Origin: Halegenticoccus soli
GTDB lineage: Archaea > Halobacteriota > Halobacteria > Halobacteriales > Haloferacaceae
Direction of reading: 5' to 3'
Assembly: GCF_002844195.1 (NCBI RefSeq)
Contig: NZ_PEND01000001.1
Location: forward strand, 186,001-250,000
DNA: 64,000 bases
The notes under the pieces are model-generated. The model worked only from the letters and a program-made list of their open reading frames with translations. It made no database searches and was not told the origin of the DNA. Each line of letters begins with the position of its first letter. The first letter of the stretch is position 1. Both the position numbers and the translations under genes were made by a program. Of this stretch, positions 685-22,714 are shown one piece after another.

Positions 685-1518
685 TCAGAGCCCGAGCGGC
701 TGCGGCGCCGGCGGCATCGAGCGCTTGTGGGCGCTCGCGTCCACCAGCGAGACCACGCGCTCGATCTGCTCTTCGGTCACGCCGAGGTGCCGGACGGTGG
801 CGGCCTTCGACAGCGGACCGTCGACGTGTAGCGCGAGGACGGCGTCGAGCGTGTCGTAGTCGAGCCCCATCTCCTCCTCGTCGGTCTGTCCCGTCCACAT
901 TTCGGCCGAGGGCGTCTTCGTCACGAGGTCGTCGGCGACGCCGACGTGGGCCGCCAGCTGGCGGACCTGCTGCTTGTAGAGGGTGCCGATGGGGTTGCAG
1001 TCGACCGCCTGATCGCCGTACTTGGTGAAGTATCCGGTGAGCGCCTCGCTCCGGTTGCCCGTCCCGAGGACGATTCGGTTCTCGTGGTTGGCGACGAAGT
1101 AGCTCAGGACGGCCCGCGTCCGGACGCGGACGTTCCCCGCCGCCGTCTGATCGCCGGCGGCCTCCGGGAGCGCGTCGAAGAACCGCTCGACGATGGGGTT
1201 GATCTCGATCACGTCGTACTCGATTCCCAGCGTCTGCGCCACGCGTTCGGCGTCGCTCATGTTCTCGTCCGTGTTGACCCGGGAGGGGAGGACGAGAGCG
1301 TGGAGTCCGCCCTCGCCGAGCGCCTCGACCGCGAGGTGCGCGGTCAGGGTGCTGTCGATACCGCCCGAGAGTCCGAGAACTGCGCCGTCGGCGTTCGCCG
1401 CGTCGACGGTGTCGCGGACGAACGAGACGACGTGCTCGCGGGTCGCTTCCAGTTCGTCGTCCGAGAGACGGAGGTCGAGCGGCGCCGAGTCGGACAGAAC
1501 GGTTGCCTCGTTGCTCAT
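685..1518 (-). CDS. nadE: NAD+ synthetase
   Basis: A 277-residue NadE that adenylates and amidates nicotinic acid adenine dinucleotide to NAD+ in the cytoplasm. The ATP-pyrophosphatase P-loop SGGIDS lies at residues 51-56. Later family segments are GTGNRSEALTGYFTKYGD and a C-terminal PSAEMWTGQTDEEEMG stretch. Length fits the ammonia-dependent single-domain form; no glutaminase domain is present. The ATG at 1518 starts a normal N-terminus. Convergent with the preceding hydratase gene. Confidence 0.95.
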   Translation of the reverse strand: MSNEATVLSDSAPLDLRLSDDELEATREHVVSFVRDTVDAANADGAVLGLSGGIDSTLTAHLAVEALGEGGLHALVLPSRVNTDENMSDAERVAQTLGIEYDVIEINPIVERFFDALPEAAGDQTAAGNVRVRTRAVLSYFVANHENRIVLGTGNRSEALTGYFTKYGDQAVDCNPIGTLYKQQVRQLAAHVGVADDLVTKTPSAEMWTGQTDEEEMGLDYDTLDAVLALHVDGPLSKAATVRHLGVTEEQIERVVSLVDASAHKRSMPPAPQPLGL

Positions 1519-2472
1519 CGGTCGCCTCGTAGGGGCGCGACCGACTAATAGCCACCCTCTCCGCCGATCTTTTCGAACGTTCGTCCACTCGACGGAGGAC
1601 GTCCGGCGGGATCGGACCGCGACCGTCGCTTCGACTCGGAGCGTCGAGGTGCGTCCCGCGCCGTCGAGCCGGGTGCGAGGCGGGCGCGCGAAGAACGACT
1701 CAGGAGGATCCGCCCGCCTCGCTGTCAGAGGAACCGCGTGACCCGTGGAGGGTCACCTGAACGTTCGTCGTATGCGATAAATGCTTTCTGGCGGCGGGTC
1801 CGCCGCACGGGTCGAGGGGAGGAAACGGGTGTGTCAGAAACCGCTGGTCGCGCGCTTCCTCCCGTTCGGGCCTCGGAGTTCGTAACTGATATGCTTTTTG
1901 TCGGAACGAGACAAATCGACAGCGAGACGACTGCGCCCGACTAGACGAGTTATTATCGAATACACCTAATAGCTGTTCTCCTGTGAGTTCCACCCCCGAT
2001 TCGCCCTCGCCTCCGTTCTCCGCAGGCGGATCCTCGGTGGAGAGCCGAGCCTCTCAGGGACGAGGGCTCGCGCGGTGTCGAACGACGGATGAAGCTCGCC
2101 GAACGGGTCGTCGAAACGCCGGCGGCTACGACGGTTTCAGTTTGGAAGTGGGTATGTTGAAGAGAAGCTCATTCACGGTCGTCAGAGGCACCCCACTTCG
2201 GCCCGATGTCGCACGGGCCGTCCTAACCTACACGGTTTATCATAAAATCCTTTTCGGATGTCAAATGACTGTACGTTAGCGCCGGCTACGGACGCCGCTC
2301 TCGTCCGGGGGGACTGTTCGGCGTAGAACGGAGGGCCGGGTCGGGGTGCCTCTGATTCGAATCGGCGGATCCGCCCCCCGTCTCTCCCCGACGGGGCGAT
2401 TCCCCCTACGATCAGGGTACAAAAACGGCTCGTGACCGATCCGTCAAAATCCGCGAAAGACGAGCGAGGCCG
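1519..2472. other. Gene-poor stretch upstream of nadE
   Basis: About 950 bp with no convincing coding sequence on either strand; short open frames here lack family motifs and haloarchaeal acidic composition. It has several AT-richer patches (around 1770-1800, 1890-1980 and 2225-2275) and one 13-bp inverted repeat (2182-2194 and 2343-2355). With the transposase remnant just downstream, it looks like a decayed insertion region. This is inference. Confidence 0.6.
2182..2355. repeat. Perfect 13-bp inverted repeat enclosing 148 bp
   Basis: TCAGAGGCACCCC at 2182-2194 is repeated in inverted orientation as GGGGTGCCTCTGA at 2343-2355. The interior has no gene. No target duplication is obvious at the outer ends. 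It could be the termini of a small non-autonomous element, or chance. Confidence 0.5.
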
Positions 2473-2772
2473 TCAGCCTCTCTCAAAGCCGGCGCTTTCC
2501 GGACGCGCCGTCCGGTACTCCGCTCTCGTAGTACGCGTTACCGAGACGGTGAATCGCCTCGGGGTCAAGCCCTGAAGCATCTTCTGAACATTCAGGTCTT
2601 CCACGAACGCGACGTCGTATTCTTTGACGAGCCACGTCGTGGGTTTGTGCTGGTAGTCCACGTAGTCCCAGCGGACGTGGTTGTAGAGTTGGCGATGGAC
2701 GTCTAACTGATGTTCCAGTCGCTCCGCCACCTCTTGTGTCGGGTACGCGTGGTAGCGGTGACTGTCTTCCAT
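2473..2772 (-). pseudogene. Internally deleted TnpB (IS200/IS605-type) remnant
   Basis: The first ~45 residues match the N-terminus of haloarchaeal TnpB proteins (RYHAYPTQEVAERLEHQLDV, then RQLYNHVRWDYV). The frame then jumps to KEYDVAFVEDLNVQKMLQ, the segment with the second RuvC-type acidic residue (ED-L). Everything between, including the first catalytic Asp, is missing. Downstream the reading decays with no zinc finger or C-terminal RuvC motif. A full TnpB is about 400 residues and this is 99, so it cannot be an active nuclease. No tnpA was seen nearby. Confidence 0.8.
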
Positions 2773-2924
2773 CGCTGTCTACTGTATTCCATCGCCGTCT
2801 CTCGATTGGAAACGTGTTGATTTACTGGTTTGTACATCTGAGTGTCGGCTTCATCCCCGAGGTCACGCCTCGCGGTATTCGCCTTGTCCGCTGATAAATG
2901 AGATCACGGAGACGAGTGGGGGAA

Positions 2925-3131
2925 CTACTCTACGAGCACCATCTCGACGAAGTGCTCCTCGCCAAACTCGTCTTCGTGCCGTGTCCCTTCGTTCAGAGCA
3001 GCGCGAAGCCCGTCGATGGTCTCTTCGTAGTTACACTCGACACACGCTAATTCGTATGTTGGCGGGCCATCTACGTCACTCTCCCTCGACGATGGCTCGG
3101 TATCGCTCGACTGCTCTCGGTTCAAGGCCAT
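2925..3131 (-). CDS. Small CxxC protein, haloarchaeal, unknown function
   Basis: A 68-residue acidic protein. The ATG at 3131 (MALNREQSSDTEP) is preferred over upstream starts because the upstream extension is basic and unlike haloarchaeal proteins. The C-terminal half carries YELACVECNYE, a CxxC knuckle, followed by His-containing HEDEFGEEHFVEMVLVE. This resembles a group of small haloarchaeal putative zinc-binding proteins I recall. Function unknown. Confidence 0.65.
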   Translation of the reverse strand: MALNREQSSDTEPSSRESDVDGPPTYELACVECNYEETIDGLRAALNEGTRHEDEFGEEHFVEMVLVE

Positions 3132-3460
3132 CGGCAGAGTGGGGTTCACGCATTGACGTATTAAGCGACGCGCCCAATCGAAATGGCGAGATGCGAGACC
3201 GGGTGGTGGTGATCGCTCATTATCACGTCTCTTCGCTATAGCTCTCATCGCTCCTGATCCGTTCACTGCACTCCGGCGGGGGAGTTGGCCAAACGTGTAG
3301 CGTCGCCACAGCCACCGACGCGGGAATTTAACCGATCGTCCCGTTCCACGAGACGCCACATTGAGAGCGCTTCACCCGCGTAGCACTCGAAAGGGCGATA
3401 CGAGGGCGAGATCGCCATCTTCAAGGTGAGCGACCTTGTACGGGATGATGCGATTCGAGA
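3132..3460. other. Intergenic, nothing recognised
   Basis: About 330 bp between the small CxxC gene and tRNA-Gly. No gene, repeat or structured RNA recognised. It must hold the tRNA promoter, but no clear TATA element was identified. Confidence 0.5.
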
Positions 3461-3531
3461 GCGCCGTTGGTCCAGTGGTAGGACAGTGGCTTCCCAAGCC
3501 ACTAGCCCGGGTTCAATTCCCGGACGGCGCA
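3461..3531 (+). tRNA. tRNA-Gly (anticodon CCC)
   Basis: A 71-nt cloverleaf. Acceptor stem GCGCCGT pairs with ACGGCGC, followed by discriminator A; no CCA is encoded. The D-loop contains GGTAGGAC. The anticodon stem GTGGC/GCCAC closes the loop TTCCCAA, giving anticodon CCC, which reads glycine GGG. The T-arm is GGGTTCAATTCCC. No intron. The last 11 nt plus the next base recur at 19019-19030. Confidence 0.97.
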
Positions 3532-4108
3532 TACGAACGCGGCGCGCTTTTCGACGCGACGGGTCGCCGGACTCCGGGAAGTCGATCTCCGAACCGAGCG
3601 AACGTCGCGCCCGAACTGTCGGTCGGTCGGACAGATCCTGGGATGGCACGACGGGCCCGAGCGCTAAACGGTGCGTTCGCCGCCCGTTTCGATCGACCGT
3701 GACGAAAACGCAAAAAACCGCGATTGTCTTCGAACCAAACAGATTAGGGCCTACGCTGATACTCGAACGGCGACGAGAACGGAGTGCGGTGCGGCGTGAG
3801 GCACCCCCTCTGTGATCGGGTGCGAAACCGCACGATCCGGCACGTGGCTTGACACACTACAACCGGACCGCAATCATCACTCCTCGTCCCTTTCGCGGCC
3901 GCGAACTCCGTCGCCGGCGATCGGCAGCTCTCGTCGATCCCGGTGCTCTCGTCGCTCTCGACGCTCTGGTAGGCCCCGCTCGGATCGGCGGACCGCTCGT
4001 CCGTCCGGTTCGAGCGCCTCCGCGCCCGAAGCGATGCGACGCTCGATCCCGTGACGCGCTTTCTCGCCCGGAGCGTGGTGTCGGTACGGTACCGGACCGC
4101 CGAGGCGC
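3532..4108. other. Intergenic, nothing recognised
   Basis: About 580 bp after tRNA-Gly with no believable gene. A run of A residues near 3710-3716 may help end tRNA transcription. Basic, Arg-rich frames here look like antisense artefacts of high GC. Confidence 0.5.
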
Positions 4109-13244: not shown

Positions 13245-15647
13245 TTAGTCGTCTGCGACCGCGGGAGCAATTACCTCTGCGTCGACTTCGTGCCTCTCGG
13301 ACAGTGGTATCCACCGCAAGTCGCTCTCGTACTGGAACGCGCGGTGGTCCTGAGTCGGGTCGACAACTGCCAGGAAGTGCCAGTTGTTGTCAAGTAGCTC
13401 CGCAACCTCCTCCTGGTCGGCAAGGATGCTGTTGACACGTTCGACCGGAGCGTGGATGACCGTCGAGAGGCGGAGTGGCTGGTGGTACGGTTCGTCGTCA
13501 GCGGTCATGAGAGACTGCAGCGGGAGACCGGTCATCAGGTCGCCGCCGTTGCCCTGGTAGACGCCGATATTGCCGACGGGGTTGTGGGTCACCTTCGACC
13601 CGCTGCCGTAGACGGCGTTGTCGACGGTCGAGAAGTAGTACTGGGTGTTTATCCACTGGGTGACGACCATCGGCCCGGCGAGTATCGCTTCCAGCGCCTC
13701 GCCGTCGGGGTCGGTCGACCAGTCGTACGAGTGGAGGAACGCGCGGCCGTCGAGGTCGAGATCGCTGGTCAGTTCGCGAGGACCAATGACGAAGCCGGCG
13801 TTGCCGGCCAGTCCCCACTCGGGACGGGTTTCGGCCCAGTCGGCAGCGCGGCGTTCCGTCTCGCTGACACCCGACGATCCACCGGGATCCATCGACTCGG
13901 CACGCTCGGCGGCCGCGTTCTCGCGAGCGGTGGCGAGGTCGGCACGCAACTGCTCGAGATCGTCGGCGTGACTCTCGGATACGTCGCTGTCGTACAGTTC
14001 GACCTCGTCGGTCGTCGTGTTGTGTTCGCCGGCGAGGAAGACGGTGTCCTCGGGGACGTCGAAACCGCGTTCGCGGAGCGCCGTCTTGACCTCGGAGTCG
14101 TTGCAGATAGCCGCGAGTACGCGGGCATTCGGCCCGCCGGGGTTGCCGGCACAGGCACCACAGTCCAGACTCGAATCGTATGGGTTGTTGGTCGTCTCGC
14201 TGGCGTGGCCGACGAAGACGACGAGGCGGCTGAACTCCTCCCAGCCCATCAGGTTGAAGGCGGTGGCGGCGTACTCGACTTTTTCCTCGGTGGTCAGCCC
14301 CACTGGCAAATCGCCTACGTAAGTATGCTGGTGATGGACGAGCGGCTCACAGAACTCGTGTTCGTCGGGCACTAACCCGTCAGCGGCGTCGAACAGGCCG
14401 TGGACGCGCCCGGGGACGAGCGTGCGGGCCGCGAGCGCGAGGCCGTAGCCGCTCCCGGCGCTCTCGACGTAGCCGTAGGCCGTGGCGGCGTTGGCCTTTA
14501 GCGTCTCGATGACTTCGTGGGCGGCCTCGCGGACACCCGACCGGCGGTCGTACCTTGTCCGCGTGTCGTCGTCGATCGGAAAGTCGGTGATGCGATGTTG
14601 TGGTTCGAGAATCGGTGGACAGGCATCGACCGGTACGTCGGCGTCGTATCCCTGGTACTCCATCGGGATGCCGAAGAAACCGGCGTACCCGTGGGTCTCG
14701 TAGTCGCCTACTGCCTCGATGTGACGGCGGATGATTTCCGAGCGAGTGTCGATACAGAAGACCAGTTGGGCGTCCGGTCGGCCCGATGTATCGCTCTCGG
14801 CCAGCGACTGACTCTCTGCGGCGACGGCCTCGACGAGGTCACCGCGGTAAGTCGCCTCCCACGCGCGCAGGAACGCCCGGGCGAGTTCGTCGGCCGGGTT
14901 CGCGTCGGCGTCCTCGTTCGAGGGCTCGATGGTGGCACCCACGCCGTCCAGCAGCGCCAGCCGCACCGCCAAGTACCCTTCCAGCGAAATCGGGTACGTC
15001 GACTGCCACTCTCCCTCGTCGGTGGCGCGCTGCTTGATGAAGCCCGTCCAGCCTGGAAGGGCGGCCAATTGCTCCTCGAAGATCGGCACCCACTGGCTCT
15101 CCGGATACGGCTCCAGCACCGTCTCGATGGCCTCGATCGGCGTCTCGGGTAGGTCAGCGACGACCCCCTCGTCGGGGACTTCGCCGTCGTATTCGGCCAC
15201 CTCACGGAATGCGACGTAGAACCCCGCTTCGCGGTTCGGCATCGACCAGTGGGCGCTTCCCTCGTCGAGGAAGGCCGACAGCCACTTCGTCAGCACCCGG
15301 TCGACGTGGTCTGTGGCGGTGTCCGCGTCACGGTCCTCGGTGTCAGCCGCGTCGGCCATGAGGTCGAGTAGCATCTCGGGATCATCCTCGTAGCCGGCCT
15401 CGGCGAGTTCCGCTCCGAGTATTTTCGGGTCTATCTGGCCGCGTTTCAGCGCCTTCCTGAACGTCTCGGCGCTGGGGTAGCCACGGCCGCCGAGCAGGTC
15501 GGCTGCCCGCACGACCGCCTCGTCGAACGGCTGGTCCTCGAACCCCGAGAGGGGGTTGGCCGTCACGAACGAGTGGATGGGCCAGAGCGAGCCCACGCTG
15601 GTCGCTGCATCGTCGATGCTGTCCGGGATGGTGGATTCAGTACTCAT
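13245..15647 (-). CDS. dabA: Inorganic-carbon pump subunit DabA (DUF2309/UPF0753)
   Basis: An 800-residue soluble subunit related to beta-carbonic anhydrases. The zinc-site residues I would assign by family are Cys298 and Asp300 in VFCIDTRSE, His481 in VGHASETTNN and Cys496 in LDCGACAG; Arg302 completes the CxDxR signature. In the known bacterial complex DabA hydrates CO2 to bicarbonate, driven by ion flow through DabB. The ATG overlaps the last 11 bp of dabB, so translation is likely coupled. A heterotrophic archaeon would use this for anaplerotic carboxylation or pH and CO2 balance, which is inference. Confidence 0.93.
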   Translation of the reverse strand: MSTESTIPDSIDDAATSVGSLWPIHSFVTANPLSGFEDQPFDEAVVRAADLLGGRGYPSAETFRKALKRGQIDPKILGAELAEAGYEDDPEMLLDLMADAADTEDRDADTATDHVDRVLTKWLSAFLDEGSAHWSMPNREAGFYVAFREVAEYDGEVPDEGVVADLPETPIEAIETVLEPYPESQWVPIFEEQLAALPGWTGFIKQRATDEGEWQSTYPISLEGYLAVRLALLDGVGATIEPSNEDADANPADELARAFLRAWEATYRGDLVEAVAAESQSLAESDTSGRPDAQLVFCIDTRSEIIRRHIEAVGDYETHGYAGFFGIPMEYQGYDADVPVDACPPILEPQHRITDFPIDDDTRTRYDRRSGVREAAHEVIETLKANAATAYGYVESAGSGYGLALAARTLVPGRVHGLFDAADGLVPDEHEFCEPLVHHQHTYVGDLPVGLTTEEKVEYAATAFNLMGWEEFSRLVVFVGHASETTNNPYDSSLDCGACAGNPGGPNARVLAAICNDSEVKTALRERGFDVPEDTVFLAGEHNTTTDEVELYDSDVSESHADDLEQLRADLATARENAAAERAESMDPGGSSGVSETERRAADWAETRPEWGLAGNAGFVIGPRELTSDLDLDGRAFLHSYDWSTDPDGEALEAILAGPMVVTQWINTQYYFSTVDNAVYGSGSKVTHNPVGNIGVYQGNGGDLMTGLPLQSLMTADDEPYHQPLRLSTVIHAPVERVNSILADQEEVAELLDNNWHFLAVVDPTQDHRAFQYESDLRWIPLSERHEVDAEVIAPAVADD

Positions 15648-17127
15648 TGTAGTCTTCCGTGGAGGTCAGCACGGTGTCCGGTGACGGTTGACTGGCGTTC
15701 AGCAGGGCCACGTAGAGACGCTGGCTGTGTTCGTGGACGCCGGTCTCGATGCCGACGTAGATGCCGACGAAGACGGCGGCGATGACGCCGTGGAGCAGGG
15801 TCAGTTCGGTCGTCGCCGTGCTGACGGTCAGGAGCTCCGAGATAGCCTCGTAGACCACGGCATAGATGACGATAGCAGGGAAGAAGACCAACGGGACGGC
15901 CCCATAGCGGGCCGTCGTCGGAAGCGAAGTGTGCTGGACCGCGCTGCGGGCCGCGTGGAGCGTGGTGAAAACCACGAAGAACGTCAACAGGAGACCACTG
16001 TCGACGTTCGTCCCCTTCCCCGTCAGCACCGCGAACAGCATGCCGCCACTGAGGCCGGTCAGCAGCGCCACGGCAAGGCCGACGACGCTCGTTATGCGCC
16101 CTATCGTGTGCTCGGTCGCCTCGCTTGGGCTGGTGTGTTCGACCTGTCCGCCTGCGCTGAGGAACTGGTAGGCCTTGTAGAAGCCGTGCAGGATGAGATG
16201 GGTGATAGCGGCCCCGAAGAAGCCGAGGCCGACCTGCATGATCATGAACCCCATCTGGCCGATCGTCGAACAGCCAAGCTTGCTCTTGATGTCCGTCTGG
16301 ACTGACTTCAGGAGTTTCCCGCCGACGGCGCTAGCCCCGCCGACAGCGACTACTGCGAGCATAAGCGCGGGATCGACGGTGATGACCGGGGCGAAGCGGG
16401 TTAGCAGGATGGCGCCCGCGTTGACGAACCCGGCGTGCATCAGCGCCGACGCCGAAGTCGGTGCGGTCATCGAGGAGAGCAGCCAGTTGTGGAACGGGAC
16501 GAGCGCGGATTGAATCATCGCCGCGAGCACGAGCGTGCCGGCGGCGATCAGCCACACTGGGCCACCGAGCGTGTCGGCGGCCGCGGCGATCCCGGAGACC
16601 GTAGTCGCCCCGGTCGCCCACCACAGTGCCGTCAGCGCGATCCCAAGGAGCGCGCTGCTGGCGAAAAAGTACTTGCGGGCGACCGCCGCGGCCGCCTGCG
16701 CCTGGTCCCAGCCGCTGGCGATACCGATGAGTTTCGCCATCAGCAGACCCATCGCCAGCCACAGAATCCCAAACAGGGCGACGTGGTCGGCCGCGACTAG
16801 CCCCATCACGACCACCGTGAAACCGAACATAGTGGCGAAAAAGGCCGTTTTGTGGGTGCTTCCGGCCATGTAGCGGCGCGAGTAGCTGTGGACGATGCCG
16901 CTGAAGAAGGTGACGACCACCCACATCAGAACAGTTAGTCCGTCGATGACGACCACGCCGGGGATCTCCCACGCGCCCTCGGTCTGGGCTCGGACGCCAA
17001 GCGTAGCGATACTCGCGATCGACAGTGACCACGCGAGCCACGTGAGTGCGGCGGGCACGAACGGCGGCTCTGCCGTCGTGTCCGGGAGCGATCCGACCGT
17101 CGTCGTCGTTGAGCCGTGTCCTGACAT
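15637..17127 (-). CDS. dabB: Inorganic-carbon pump subunit DabB (NuoL/MrpA-like ion-translocating protein)
   Basis: A 496-residue polytopic membrane protein of the proton-conducting transporter family. Typical segments: SRRYMAGSTHKTAFFATMFGFT, then SALVPFHNWLLSSMTAPTSASALMHAG-like core (the functional antiporter helix with Lys/His replaced by local variants), and SKLGCSTIGQMGFM followed by HGFYKAYQFLSAG. About 13 transmembrane helices by eye. Its 3' end overlaps dabA. The promoter and a palindrome lie 70-100 bp before the ATG. This subunit supplies the ion gradient coupling to DabA. Confidence 0.93.
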   Translation of the reverse strand: MSGHGSTTTTVGSLPDTTAEPPFVPAALTWLAWSLSIASIATLGVRAQTEGAWEIPGVVVIDGLTVLMWVVVTFFSGIVHSYSRRYMAGSTHKTAFFATMFGFTVVVMGLVAADHVALFGILWLAMGLLMAKLIGIASGWDQAQAAAAVARKYFFASSALLGIALTALWWATGATTVSGIAAAADTLGGPVWLIAAGTLVLAAMIQSALVPFHNWLLSSMTAPTSASALMHAGFVNAGAILLTRFAPVITVDPALMLAVVAVGGASAVGGKLLKSVQTDIKSKLGCSTIGQMGFMIMQVGLGFFGAAITHLILHGFYKAYQFLSAGGQVEHTSPSEATEHTIGRITSVVGLAVALLTGLSGGMLFAVLTGKGTNVDSGLLLTFFVVFTTLHAARSAVQHTSLPTTARYGAVPLVFFPAIVIYAVVYEAISELLTVSTATTELTLLHGVIAAVFVGIYVGIETGVHEHSQRLYVALLNASQPSPDTVLTSTEDYNEY

Positions 17128-17199
17128 CGTTCAGTCCATTTGCGACCCGTCACGGTATCCGAGACAAACCAGGTGGGTCGCTTCTGGTCGCCCTCACCC

Positions 17200-17219
17200 A
17201 CCATTACGAACAGAATGGT
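17200..17219. promoter_or_regulatory. Palindrome at the dab promoter, candidate operator
   Basis: ACCATT-N8-AATGGT is a perfect 6+6 bp inverted repeat directly downstream (minus strand) of the dab TATA-like element, about where transcription would start. A protein bound there would block or modulate initiation. The Lrp-family gene 1.3 kb away is a natural candidate, but no second copy of the palindrome was seen at its own promoter. Confidence 0.45.
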
Positions 17220-17227
17220 TATTAAAT
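17220..17227 (-). promoter_or_regulatory. TATA-like element of dabBA
   Basis: On the minus strand this reads ATTTAATA inside an AT-rich stretch (17215-17275), upstream of dabB. It predicts a transcript starting near 17195 with a ~65-nt leader. Confidence 0.5.
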
Positions 17228-17318
17228 CCTTCTATTCTACCAAATTGTTCCCGATTAAGCGGATAATAGAACGTTATGTTTTCACCCCGCCAGCGAGTGG
17301 AGTGGCCCGACAGTGAGG

Positions 17319-18020
17319 TCAGTTCAGGAGACTCCCTACCTGAACCGAGGGATCGTCCGGGAGGCGAGGCCGAATCTCGGTCGGTTCAGTCGCACCGTCA
17401 AGAGCAACTAGATACCGCTTGCCGGGGAAGGAACTGTACGCCCCGTCTTGATCGTGGACGTAGCCAGCAATCGTGACCGAAGGGGGGAGTGCCTGCTGGA
17501 GAAACCGAACTTGGCGGCTGACATTGTATTCGACGAGTCGATACGCTCTCGTCCGAAGTGACGTAGATTCCTCGAAGAGGCCCTGCTCGGCTCCATCCTC
17601 GACGAGGGAAACGAGCGGATCCAATCGTGCCTGGACGCCTGCAGGCGATTCTGGTGGCGGTGACACCCACCGATCGTACGCATCTCTGAGAACCTCACAC
17701 CTCGTATGTCCAACGACGAGCACGGCTGCGATGTCGTACTGGTTCCTGAGATGTGCAATGTCACCGTCGATAACCGTCTCGCCCTCGTATCGTTCCCGCG
17801 TCTGGTTTCCGAGGGTCTGAACGCCGACGGCGTTCCAGGCGGCGTCAATTGGCCAGAGTGGCTCACGGGGTTCGCAGTCACTCATCGAACACGAGACGAC
17901 GAGGGCGGTCTGAGCACTCGATGCGCGTACCGAATCTCTTCGAGATTCGGTCCAGTCTTGGACGGATTCGATGAGAGATTCGAGACTGTCCCCGCTCATC
18001 AACGGGTGGTCCACCTCCAT
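17319..18020 (-). CDS. Beta-carbonic-anhydrase-like protein lacking the Asp/Arg dyad
   Basis: A 233-residue protein starting at the ATG at 18020 (another ATG at 17999 is possible). It keeps the three zinc ligands of beta-carbonic anhydrases: Cys44 in VVSCSMSDCEP, and His105 plus Cys108 in VVGHTRCEV. In active enzymes the first motif is CxDxR; here the Asp is Met46 and the Arg position is Asp48. The C-terminal part (SRQVRFLQQALPPSVTIAGYVHDQDGAYSSF) matches the family's last strands. It lies just upstream of dabBA on the same strand but beyond their promoter. It may be a partner or regulator of the pump rather than a normal carbonic anhydrase. Confidence 0.8.
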   Translation of the reverse strand: MEVDHPLMSGDSLESLIESVQDWTESRRDSVRASSAQTALVVSCSMSDCEPREPLWPIDAAWNAVGVQTLGNQTRERYEGETVIDGDIAHLRNQYDIAAVLVVGHTRCEVLRDAYDRWVSPPPESPAGVQARLDPLVSLVEDGAEQGLFEESTSLRTRAYRLVEYNVSRQVRFLQQALPPSVTIAGYVHDQDGAYSSFPGKRYLVALDGATEPTEIRPRLPDDPSVQVGSLLN

Positions 18021-18167
18021 TCACGCGTATCGGTGTCTGTCATCGACCGTCAGGACAGAATAGCCGCCGAGACGAAATAGTGTTACCGAAACGTTCGATA
18101 TTCGGGGTTTGAAAAATCATATCGTTATTCGGGATGTCGGGTTCCTGTCGCAGTCTGTCCGCGCGCG

Positions 18168-18500
18168 AATACTGTCTTGGGTAGACCCCCAGTACGGGAG
18201 TTGGTCGATCACACGACAGTCGCACTCGGGACGGATAACGTACCGCTCAATCCACCCGCTATGGTTCGCGAGATGGCATATACGGCGAAACGATTCGACG
18301 TGACCGCGCGGGAGGATGTCAAGGATGGCGACGACCGCGGGTGCCGAGATCGTCGGACTTGACTGTGGAGTCATCGCTCCTGGCCGCCGGGCCGCACTCA
18401 CCGTTCTCGACGGCGACTCGGACAATCTGGCTGACTCAGTCGATCCGGTACGTGCAGTCGTCCGGCGCGCGACCGCGCTCGATATCAAATACGTCGTCAG
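18168..18500 (+). pseudogene. 3' fragment of an amidohydrolase (COG0402-type), frameshifted
   Basis: Frame 3 from ~18168 reads GRPPVRELVDHTTVALGTDN, then VREMAYTAKRFDVTARE, which is the metal-binding GTDN strand region of cytosine-deaminase/chlorohydrolase-like amidohydrolases. After a frameshift near 18310-18318 it continues in frame 1 as MATTAGAEIVGLDCGVIAPG, RRAALTVLDGDSDNLA and DPVRAVVRRATALDIKYVV, the usual C-terminus. The N-terminal ~250 residues with the HxH motif are absent. Its 3' end abuts the Lrp gene on the other strand. Confidence 0.8.
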
Positions 18501-18974
18501 TCAGCTGCTGTTCTCGGAATCGAACTTGCCGAAGGGCGTCGTCTCGTGGCTTCGAACGAGCACTTCGTCGGCGACTGTCAGTCCCATATCGAGGAGTTCC
18601 TGCGCCACGGGCGTGATCTCGCTGTCCGACTCGCCGACAGCCGTCACGAGGAGATTCCGTTCACCAGTGACCAGTTCCTGAACCGACACAACGCCGTCGA
18701 TCTCCAAGATTTTGGGTATCAGGTCGCCGCGTTCGGATATCGAAGCAGTACAGTAAAGCAACATTCGGAGGGGGTAACCCGCCTTCTGATAATCGACGCT
18801 GGCGCTGTATCCTTTGATTATGCCGTCGGACTCGAGGCGCTGGATGCGCTTACGGACCGTACTGTCCGAGGTACCGGTTCGCTCTGCGATGTCTCCGGAC
18901 GACGTGTTACGAGCATCCTCTTGTAACGCGTATAGGACTGCTCTGTCCACGTCGTCAATTTCTTCGTCAGCCAT
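18501..18974 (-). CDS. Lrp/AsnC family transcriptional regulator
   Basis: A 157-residue regulator. Residues 1-60 are a winged HTH (VDRAVLYALQEDARNTSSGD, then GTSDSTVRKRIQRLESDGII). Residues ~65-150 are a RAM/AsnC ligand domain (VQELVTGERNLLVTAVGESD). Such proteins sense small molecules, commonly amino acids, and act as activators or repressors. A TATA-like element (TATAAA at 19006-19011 on the minus strand) sits ~32 bp before the ATG. Being the nearest regulator to the dab genes it is a candidate for controlling them, which is inference. Confidence 0.92.
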   Translation of the reverse strand: MADEEIDDVDRAVLYALQEDARNTSSGDIAERTGTSDSTVRKRIQRLESDGIIKGYSASVDYQKAGYPLRMLLYCTASISERGDLIPKILEIDGVVSVQELVTGERNLLVTAVGESDSEITPVAQELLDMGLTVADEVLVRSHETTPFGKFDSENSS

Positions 18975-20147: not shown

Positions 20148-21725
20148 TCAGGCGAGGAACACGTGCCGCGGCCGGTCCGCGAGCACGTCCCGCCCCCACC
20201 GGACCGTGTCCCTGAACTCCTCGCTCCGGAAGAACGCCATCGCGTCCTCCTTCGAGCGCCACTGGCTGGAGATGAACATGTCGTTTTCGTCCTCGCGGTT
20301 CACCATGAGGTCAGTGCCGTGGTGACCCTCCATGTCGTCGAGCAGCCCGCCGACCGTCGCGAACTTCCCGACGAAGTCCTCGCGGTGCTCCGGCTCGACC
20401 GTGTAGAACATCCCCATCGTGCCGAACCCGGACTCCTCGCCCGCGCGGGAGACGATCCCGGGCAGTTCCGAGAGGAACCCCGCGGCGGTTTCGGCGGCGC
20501 TCGCCGTCTCCCAGACGCTCACGACCGCCGATCTCTCCCCGTCGCTGGCCTCGTACACGGCGGTCTTGACGTGCGTGCCGTAGTGGTCGAAGTTGCCCCG
20601 CAGCCCCTCGACTTCCTTGAACAGCTCGGCGGGGTCGGCTTCGGAGTACAGGACGGTGGCGTACACGTCCTCGCCGTGCGGCTTGCCGGCGTAGACGTTC
20701 AGCTCCTCCAGTTCGCCGCGGATCTCCTCCGAGGCGTCGGCGGACTCGTCGCGTCCGCGGCCGTGACCATCTCGGGCGTCCTCACCGCCACCGTGGGCGT
20801 GGTGGGCGCCGCCTCCGTGATGGTTGCCGGCTTCGGCGCGACCGCCCTCGCCGCGTCCGCCGTGGACGCCGTTGTCGACGCCGTGCTCGGACGTCGGGAC
20901 GGGGTCGCCGGCGAGGAACGTGCCCAGATCCGACGGCGGGAATCGCCGACCGACGTAGAACCGCCCGAACTCGCCGTACTTCGAGGACGCCTCGTCGAAC
21001 CGCATCTCGTAGACGATGTCCTTGATGTCGGTCGGATCCGCCGCGAAGAGCGTGACGCCCCACTCGTAGTCGTCGAAGCCGACGCTGGAGGCGATGACCT
21101 GTTTTATCCTCCCGGCGAACTTCCGCCCCACGTCGCCGTGGCCCGACATGAGCTCGGCGCGCTCGTCGAACGGCAGGTCGTACCAGTTGTACACCTCGCC
21201 CCGGCGCTTTTTCATCGGGTAGAAGCTCACGTACTCGTCGTCCGGGATGTCCGGTTTGAGCTTCCCCTCGATGTAGCGGCGGAGGCCCTCGTCGATGGAT
21301 TCCGCCCCTCCTTGGCTTACCTCGCCGGTTTCGGCCTCGTCGTCGGACGGCTCCGACGCTTCGCTCTCGAAGTAGGCGTCGGAGACGTAGCCGGACACCT
21401 CGGTGACGGAGACGTACGACGTCGCCCTGTCGGTGAAGCCCGCGAGGGCCGTCCGCTCGAAGCGGCGCTCCGCCGTCGACAGGTCGTCGAGCGTCGGGCG
21501 GAAGTGCAGGAGCAGCAGGTCGGCCTTGTGGCCCAGAAGCCCGAACACGGCCGACGCGCCCTCCTCCGCGTCCTCGACCGCCTCGTGCGATTCGAGGTAC
21601 CGAACGCCGGCTTCGATCGCCCGTTCGCGTTCCCGTTCGGGCGTGTCTCGCCACGCGTCCCAGTCGACCGTCCGGAAGTCGTGCAGCGCGTACCACCCTT
21701 CGTCGGTCTGCGGCGGCTCTGGCAT
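20148..21725 (-). CDS. pitA: PitA: chlorite-dismutase-like coproheme/heme protein fused to an ABM monooxygenase-like domain
   Basis: A 525-residue protein starting at the ATG at 21725. Residues 1-270 are the Cld/HemQ fold. Tyr169 in SFYPMKKRR and His196 in MSGHGDVGRKFAGR match the catalytic Tyr and proximal heme His of coproheme decarboxylases, followed by FDDYEWGVTLFA. Residues ~281-330 are a Gly/His-rich linker with eight His. Residues ~335-525 carry two antibiotic-biosynthesis-monooxygenase-like ferredoxin folds. It matches haloarchaeal PitA, thought to act in the last step of heme synthesis. Separated from the divergent FNT gene by ~150 bp. Confidence 0.9.
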   Translation of the reverse strand: MPEPPQTDEGWYALHDFRTVDWDAWRDTPERERERAIEAGVRYLESHEAVEDAEEGASAVFGLLGHKADLLLLHFRPTLDDLSTAERRFERTALAGFTDRATSYVSVTEVSGYVSDAYFESEASEPSDDEAETGEVSQGGAESIDEGLRRYIEGKLKPDIPDDEYVSFYPMKKRRGEVYNWYDLPFDERAELMSGHGDVGRKFAGRIKQVIASSVGFDDYEWGVTLFAADPTDIKDIVYEMRFDEASSKYGEFGRFYVGRRFPPSDLGTFLAGDPVPTSEHGVDNGVHGGRGEGGRAEAGNHHGGGAHHAHGGGEDARDGHGRGRDESADASEEIRGELEELNVYAGKPHGEDVYATVLYSEADPAELFKEVEGLRGNFDHYGTHVKTAVYEASDGERSAVVSVWETASAAETAAGFLSELPGIVSRAGEESGFGTMGMFYTVEPEHREDFVGKFATVGGLLDDMEGHHGTDLMVNREDENDMFISSQWRSKEDAMAFFRSEEFRDTVRWGRDVLADRPRHVFLA

Positions 21726-21874: not shown

Positions 21875-22714
21875 ATGTCATCTGACGAACCAACGGGTGC
21901 GACGCTGTCGTACCGACGTATCCTCGAACAGGAGATGGAGAACGCGCTGAAGGAGATCAACCGCCCCGCGAAGGGCGTGTTCCTCTCGGGCATCTCCGCC
22001 GGGCTCAACGTGAGCTTCGGCGCGTTGTTTATGGGGATGGCGCTGACGTACGCCGGCGGGTTCTCCTCGTCGCTCGTCCAGCAGGCAGTCCTCGCGGCGG
22101 TGTCGTCCGTCGGCTTCGTCTTCGTCATCCTCGGCCAGACGGAACTCTTCACCGCCCACACGACGATGGCCGTCATTCCGGTGCTCGACGGCCGCGCGAC
22201 GCTCCGCGAACTGCTCGGGCTCTGGGGCGTCGTCTACGTCTCGAACCTCGTCGGCTGCGCGCTGTTCGCCGGGCTCATCGCGGTTCTCGGTCCGGCGCTC
22301 GGCATCGTTCAGCCGTCCGCGTTCGCGACCATCGCGGAGGCGGTCGTTCCGTACCCCTGGTGGGTGATCCTCCTCAGCGCCGTCGTCGCCGGGTGGCTGA
22401 TGGGCCTCGCGACGTGGCTCGTCGCGGCCAGTCTCGACGCCATCTCGCGGGTCGTCCTCGTGCTCCTCACCACCGCGGCGATCGGATTCGGACCGTTCCA
22501 CCACGCCCTGCTGGGGTCGACCGAGATGCTCGCCGCCATGTTCCTCGGCCAGGGAGTGACGCTCGCAGAGTTCGCGACGGTCCTCGCGTGGACGACGATC
22601 GGCAACGCCGTCGGCGGCGGCGTCTTCGTCGCGCTGCTCAACTACGGACACGTCGCCCTCGCCGGCGAGCGGGTCGACGTCGACTTCGACGCCGAAACCG
22701 ACGCGAGCGACTGA
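21875..22714 (+). CDS. Formate/nitrite transporter (FNT) family channel
   Basis: A 279-residue membrane protein with six helices and the FNT fold. Family landmarks: RPAKGVFLSGISAGLNVSFG near helix 1 and GQTELFTAHTTMAVIPVLDG after helix 2b. HHALLGSTEMLAAMF is in helix 5 and TIGNAVGGGVFVALLNYGH in helix 6. Family members conduct small monovalent anions such as formate, nitrite, hydrosulfide or lactate; the substrate is unclear here. The gene precedes a PadR regulator by 66 bp. Confidence 0.92.
   Translation: MSSDEPTGATLSYRRILEQEMENALKEINRPAKGVFLSGISAGLNVSFGALFMGMALTYAGGFSSSLVQQAVLAAVSSVGFVFVILGQTELFTAHTTMAVIPVLDGRATLRELLGLWGVVYVSNLVGCALFAGLIAVLGPALGIVQPSAFATIAEAVVPYPWWVILLSAVVAGWLMGLATWLVAASLDAISRVVLVLLTTAAIGFGPFHHALLGSTEMLAAMFLGQGVTLAEFATVLAWTTIGNAVGGGVFVALLNYGHVALAGERVDVDFDAETDASD

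Follow-up and report, generated by a model that had tools for sequence, protein, structure and literature searches.

In the 64,000-nucleotide stretch of Halegenticoccus soli DNA analyzed here (the window), a transferred cassette composed of an Lrp regulator, a pseudo-carbonic anhydrase, dabB and dabA very likely encodes a DAB-type inorganic-carbon pump, with the carbonic-anhydrase-like protein (CAL) as a non-catalytic accessory. Within this assembly, DabB would pass protons down the membrane gradient, and the proton flow would power the unidirectional hydration of CO2, yielding bicarbonate, at the DabA zinc. The bicarbonate produced would feed the biotin carboxylases and further carboxylation reactions of a heterotrophic host. 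The Lrp protein would control the dabB promoter, and CAL would act as a bicarbonate/CO2 sensor or as a modulator of DabA rather than as a carbonic anhydrase. For this host, the pump reaction is proposed by analogy with the DAB2 system of Halothiobacillus neapolitanus. The pump itself is not a new find, since DABs in heterotrophic Halobacteria were previously on record (PMC10880623; PMC8305020). The initial annotation had located dabA, dabB, CAL and the Lrp gene correctly, with all four on the minus strand.

CAL (17319-18020, minus strand) is a protein of 233 residues related to beta-carbonic anhydrases (beta-CAs). The description of a carbonic-anhydrase-like gene next to the pump stands as regards its presence and its beta-CA fold, but the protein falls below the Pfam cut-off and lacks the catalytic Asp, Arg and Gln. 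Its score against the Pfam Pro_CA profile is 22 bits (E 2e-4), under the gathering score of 25.7, which a relative (L012) barely exceeds with 26.7 bits, and a sequence search of the PDB with CAL returned no match. The fold is that of the AlphaFold2 model (pLDDT 86), for which all the top Foldseek matches listed are beta-CAs (best E 1.8e-8, TM about 0.5). Alignment and tree comprised 15 CALs and 15 other haloarchaeal beta-CAs. The zinc ligands, C44, H105 and C108 in the window, are invariant as Cys/His/Cys in 30/30 aligned sequences. CAL has both the fold and the zinc ligands of the canonical haloarchaeal proteins (CSDSR ... GHTGCG). What sets CAL apart is the rest of the active site. The CxDxR motif is replaced by CSMSD in the window; the catalytic Asp is found in 0/15 CALs, an Arg occupies the dyad place in only two of them (L087 and L156), and the transition-state Gln, located nine residues before the first Cys, is likewise present in none (Ser in the window), whereas all 15 canonical enzymes keep Asp, Arg and Gln. 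The two groups split as separate clades with 100/100 support. With the catalytic Asp, Arg and Gln gone, CAL is probably not a CO2-hydrating partner of the pump.

The genomic distribution of CAL ties it to dab. Across 392 genomes sampled class-wide, 14/14 loci of the CAL clade occupy the position before dabB; the other six matches in this sample are canonical beta-CAs encoded elsewhere, one of which adjoins dabA. Moreover, every genome of the family sample that carries CAL also carries a canonical beta-CA. Canonical beta-CA genes (CSDSR) are also seen near dab in L079, L104, L100, L105, L103, L108, L091, L096, L051 and L035, either just downstream of dabA or past the regulator and divergent from it. 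The full cassette is found on a plasmid of Halorussus pelagicus (L194, EP007_RS15815-15835), where a wHTH regulator, an amidohydrolase, a "carbonic anhydrase" (WP_128478739.1, L194:3666-4334), dabB and dabA follow one another. This publicly annotated carbonic anhydrase is a dyad-less CAL that reads CSMSS. The public name thus conceals a homologue that has no dyad and is linked to the pump.

Comparisons of the window CAL with its relatives give omega values of 0.18-0.28, like those of dabA and dabB; CAL is therefore under purifying selection and is a maintained protein. It is, however, intact in 4 of the 81 scored named and plasmid dab loci and absent from most, while relics are found in L010/L085, L013 and G034 and a stop codon in L154. 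As most dab loci lack CAL and several carry a damaged copy, the protein is dispensable. It can be proposed that CAL is a pump-dedicated pseudo-carbonic anhydrase, described here for the first time, for which the candidate roles would be those of a sensor, a DabA partner or a zinc carrier. More specifically, and tentatively, CAL may found a pseudo-carbonic anhydrase family dedicated to the pump: a beta-CA paralogue that has lost catalysis and kept zinc, possibly together with CO2/bicarbonate binding, and that performs gating or sensing for the DAB pump or for the Lrp regulator while avoiding the futile cycling to which a genuine cytoplasmic carbonic anhydrase could lead. A precedent, for the principle only, exists in Arabidopsis, where beta-CA4 binds the membrane transporter SLAC1 and regulates it apart from catalysis (PMC13128974); CA4 is, however, a catalytically active plant enzyme acting on an anion channel, and the comparison is an analogy.

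Two other readings of CAL have to be weighed. In the first, which appears unlikely, CAL would be catalytically active, either as a carbonic anhydrase or as a related lyase acting on some other small molecule, and different residues would replace the Asp-Arg dyad. The presence of the zinc ligands in every member, the beta-CA fold and the purifying selection would all agree with an active enzyme, and one mycobacterial beta-CA functions without Gln/His. Such an enzyme would nevertheless have to work after the loss of Asp and Gln in 15/15 CALs and of Arg in 13/15, while the function of DabA2 depends critically on its dyad residues; in addition, all CAL-bearing genomes of the family sample encode a separate canonical beta-CA. 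In the second, which is less probable still, CAL would be a functionless former carbonic anhydrase decaying in a degrading cassette. The CAL relics and the interrupted copy mentioned above, as well as the amidohydrolase already reduced to a relic in the window, are in keeping with decay; the omega values of the window CAL, close to those of dabA and dabB, argue against it, as do the invariance of the zinc ligands over a deep clade and the intact reading frame in the window. The preferred reading is therefore still that of a maintained accessory protein that is probably non-catalytic.

The amidohydrolase relic (PF01979 family; 18123-18498, plus strand) was detected by tblastn with the L008:4492-5508 protein, to which it is 79% and 81% identical in frames +3 and +1. 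Residues 1-210 are gone and about the last third survives, split over the two frames. Thus, the cassette either lost this gene after arrival or came already reduced. The corresponding gene is intact in the Halorussus pelagicus plasmid and, more generally, in 36 of the 81 scored haloarchaeal dab loci. In these relatives, it is oriented towards the regulator and placed between the regulator and dabB or CAL. The amidohydrolase is dispensable in the loci that lack it.

The two pump genes are dabA (13245-15647, minus strand), which encodes the beta-CA-like cytoplasmic subunit of 800 residues, and dabB (15637-17127, minus strand), which encodes the NuoL-like membrane subunit of 496 residues (PF00361). 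The PF10070 match of DabA spans the whole protein (902.5 bits, profile positions 1-746 of 747), and the Pfam matches of DabB are Proton_antipo_M and Proton_antipo_N. The 11-bp overlap of the two genes that had been noted initially is confirmed at 15637-15647, and the same overlap is found in named relatives on annotated haloarchaeal plasmids. By PDB sequence search, DabA2 of H. neapolitanus (9rd0_A) is the sole solved relative found for DabA, and DabB2 (9rd0_B) is the top match of DabB. The residues C298, D300, R302, H481 and C496 singled out in the initial annotation align with C351, D353, R355, H524 and C539 of DabA2. Mapped on 9rd0_A, C298, H481 and C496 are the zinc ligands and D300/R302 form the dyad; the alignment, examined for a loss of zinc ligands that would speak against function, shows ligands and dyad kept. 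The finger glutamate (E395) and the Ala/Leu pair of the CO2 pocket (A322 and L613) are present too. In all, 11/11 functional residues of DabA2 are identical in the window protein (C298, D300, R302, S303, A322, E395, H481, C496, H542, D547 and L613), and all of them are invariant across 81 haloarchaeal DabAs. Similarly, the proton path of DabB is identical to that of DAB2 at 7/7 residues (S227, H231, K281, S287, H310, H314 and K318), which are invariant in 78 haloarchaeal DabBs. Mutants of DAB2 in the mapped functional residues are impaired in function (PMC13144422). With all 11 DabA and all seven DabB residues present, the pair qualifies, on the sequence features that define the family, as a genuine DAB-type pump.

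One residue departs from the DAB2 model. K235 of DabB2, the member of the K235/Asp185 ion pair that could be placed on the alignment, corresponds to Q206 in the window DabB, and a Gln is found here in 78/78 haloarchaeal DabBs. This position also holds R and A among four aligned bacterial DabB rows; the ion pair, the lysine of which is missing here, varies in the DAB family and is not strictly defining. In DAB2, loss of K235 lowers growth without abolishing it (PMC13144422). Coupling in haloarchaeal DabB could therefore differ from that of DAB2. It may be asked whether the pair acts like staphylococcal MpsAB, that is, as a sodium-driven bicarbonate importer and not as a proton-driven CO2 hydratase. 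MpsAB belongs to the same gene families as DabA/DabB and has been proposed to be a Na+/HCO3- symporter, haloarchaea inhabit high Na+, and the Gln at the K235 position could be read in the same direction. This view is nonetheless improbable, given that DabA has kept its residues for zinc, the dyad and the CO2 site in full and DabB all seven of its proton path, and that the closest PDB match is DAB2. A proton-driven CO2 hydratase is the reading kept hereafter.

Two known systems are closest to the window pump. DAB2 of H. neapolitanus (DabA2/DabB2; PDB 9rd0, PMC13144422) resembles it in the gene pair, in the protein families and in the 11 DabA and seven DabB residues. The proteins are, however, about a third identical, the host of the window is heterotrophic and its DabB has the Gln described above. 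Haloferax volcanii HVO_2410/HVO_2411 (dabAB) is likewise a haloarchaeal DAB pair, predicted to be a CO2 transporter (PMC8305020). Among other species of Haloferax, DabA shares 76% identity with the window protein in H. gibbonsii and 64% in H. mucosum. The window differs from the H. volcanii pair by the addition of CAL between the regulator and dabB. Second, divergent dabA copies (55% identity) were observed at G100:C1:40592 and G105:C3:335686, with no Lrp partner within 8 kb.

The Lrp/AsnC-type regulator (18501-18974, minus strand) is a protein of 157 residues. Its N-terminal helix-turn-helix is of the AsnC type (HTH_AsnC-type; PF13404, 1.8e-12), while its C-terminal half, where a RAM ligand domain would lie, has no Pfam match. 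A regulator of this type stands beside the pump in the window, whereas a LysR-type regulator stands beside dabBA in three of the bacterial plasmid loci examined. Co-occurrence was studied in 119 genomes of the window's family, 83 of them with dabA, a homologue being counted when at least 70% identical to the window Lrp. It is found in 81/83 dabA-bearing genomes vs 0/36 dabA-less ones, and in the two dabA genomes without it, dabA lies about 1.3 kb or less from the contig start. Counted by gene copy, 83/87 dabA have an Lrp within 8 kb. Within the cassette, Lrp is also under the strongest constraint (omega 0.06-0.08). The near 1:1 association with dabA in the genomes sampled marks the Lrp regulator as an obligate partner of haloarchaeal dabBA, a relation reported here for the first time.

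A candidate target of the regulator lies between CAL and dabB. At 17209-17278 (minus strand), a putative operator together with a TATA element forms a footprint of the form CATAACGTTCTATTAT-N11-GGGAAC...GGATTTAATA...CATTCTGTT. The consensus over 78 dabB upstream regions reads CATAATGTTCTATAAT, about 11 bp, GAACgattTGtgAat, TTTAATA and CTGTTC, with near-fixed spacing. Identity to the window averages 0.71 in the footprint, compared with 0.46 in the 60 bp just upstream and 0.62 at dabB four-fold sites, and the exact pattern has one occurrence in the 4.6 Mb genome. This dabB promoter footprint, conserved at the sequence level, is also new here. Its haloarchaeal conservation before dabB supports the single promoter that had been proposed for dabB and dabA. 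Binding of the Lrp protein to the predicted operator at 17209-17278 may be envisaged. Between the TATA box and the dabB start (about 17128-17208; median 90 nt in relatives), the dabB leader carries partly conserved CGACC...GGTCG blocks; RNAalifold, run on a gappy alignment of this stretch, gave no consensus structure, and a structured RNA leader is accordingly not proposed.

The lower GC content from which transfer had been suspected is confirmed by measurement: 0.627 at 12.9-19.0 kb vs 0.713 at 4.0-12.9 kb and 0.689 at 19-30 kb. GC3 is 0.83 for dabA, 0.85 for dabB, 0.64 for CAL and 0.68 for Lrp, vs 0.86-0.96 nearby, and codon usage shifts likewise, the reference genes for this comparison being confined to the window and a number of unlabelled, probably spurious ORFs being left out. 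In the RpoB tree, the nearest relative of the host is Halalkalirubrum salinum (93% identity), and both fall within Haloferacaceae, recovered as one clade at 100%. The window DabA is, in contrast, 64% identical to that of Halalkalirubrum and 80-83% identical to those of Haloarcula, Haloglomus, Natronomonas and Halorussus, which are outside Haloferacaceae. With the 31 taxa shared by both trees, a grouping of the window DabA with that of Halalkalirubrum is rejected (AU p=6e-10), as is a single DabA clade of Haloferacaceae (AU p 2e-4). The window DabA sits in a mixed clade of 17 rows, inside which its placement has a support of 93 or less. The search of a single further genome of the genus (G001, 99% complete) found neither dabA nor the Lrp regulator, and the dab locus is carried by plasmids in Haloarcula, Halorussus, Halobaculum and Halorientalis. 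The conflict between DabA and RpoB, the AU rejections, the absence from G001 and the plasmid loci make transfer among haloarchaea well supported by sequence comparison. Vertical inheritance with compositional drift is very improbable: the moderate GC3 of dab genes in other lineages and the presence of dab in 83/119 genomes of the family would suit it, but the AU rejections set against the RpoB clade at 100%, the lack of dab in G001 and its plasmid carriage in four genera go against it. Recent acquisition from bacteria is rejected. In the comparison, the 81 DabAs of haloarchaea stay together and separate from five bacterial ones, and bacterial relatives on plasmids are less than 40% identical; the deep root is unsure, as the bacterial branches are long. 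No convincing direct repeats were found at the edges of the low-GC segment.

Elsewhere in the window, a second low-GC stretch (1500-3600, about 0.57-0.63) contains an ORF resembling a fragment of a TnpB-type transposase (2473-2772, minus strand), adjoined by a tRNA-Gly(CCC) gene at 3461-3531. Just beyond the dab segment, a gene of the formate/nitrite-transporter family (21875-22714, plus strand) and a HemQ-like gene with a fused ABM domain are divergently oriented. A tRNA-Phe called by ARAGORN at 20437-20527 (minus strand) falls within the chlorite-dismutase/HemQ-like ORF and is probably false.

As for the role of the pump in a heterotroph, growth of heterotrophs requires bicarbonate, and because of this requirement a DAB can replace carbonic anhydrase activity (PMC9894237). 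In Firmicutes, DAB and carbonic anhydrase are reported to follow a one-or-the-other pattern (PMC10880623). Among the 119 family genomes, searched with one beta-CA query and without regard to other carbonic anhydrase classes, dabA is present in 22/24 genomes without a beta-CA match vs 61/95 with one (Fisher p 0.011, uncorrected for relatedness). When genomes at least 90% complete are considered, these counts become 17/18 and 58/89. The complementarity is modest and points the same way as the Firmicutes pattern. The host genome has two biotin carboxylase genes. The proposal, made in the initial annotation, that the pump serves carboxylations under low CO2 fits both the literature and this distribution. 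The near-complementarity of DAB and beta-CA backs the view that DABs are a general bicarbonate supply. Most work on DABs concerns autotrophs. In haloarchaea, which include species tractable in the laboratory, the pump can be studied in heterotrophs and comes with a regulator and a promoter signal of its own. Should CAL turn out to sense or gate inorganic carbon, one could directly test how a vectorial carbonic anhydrase is controlled.
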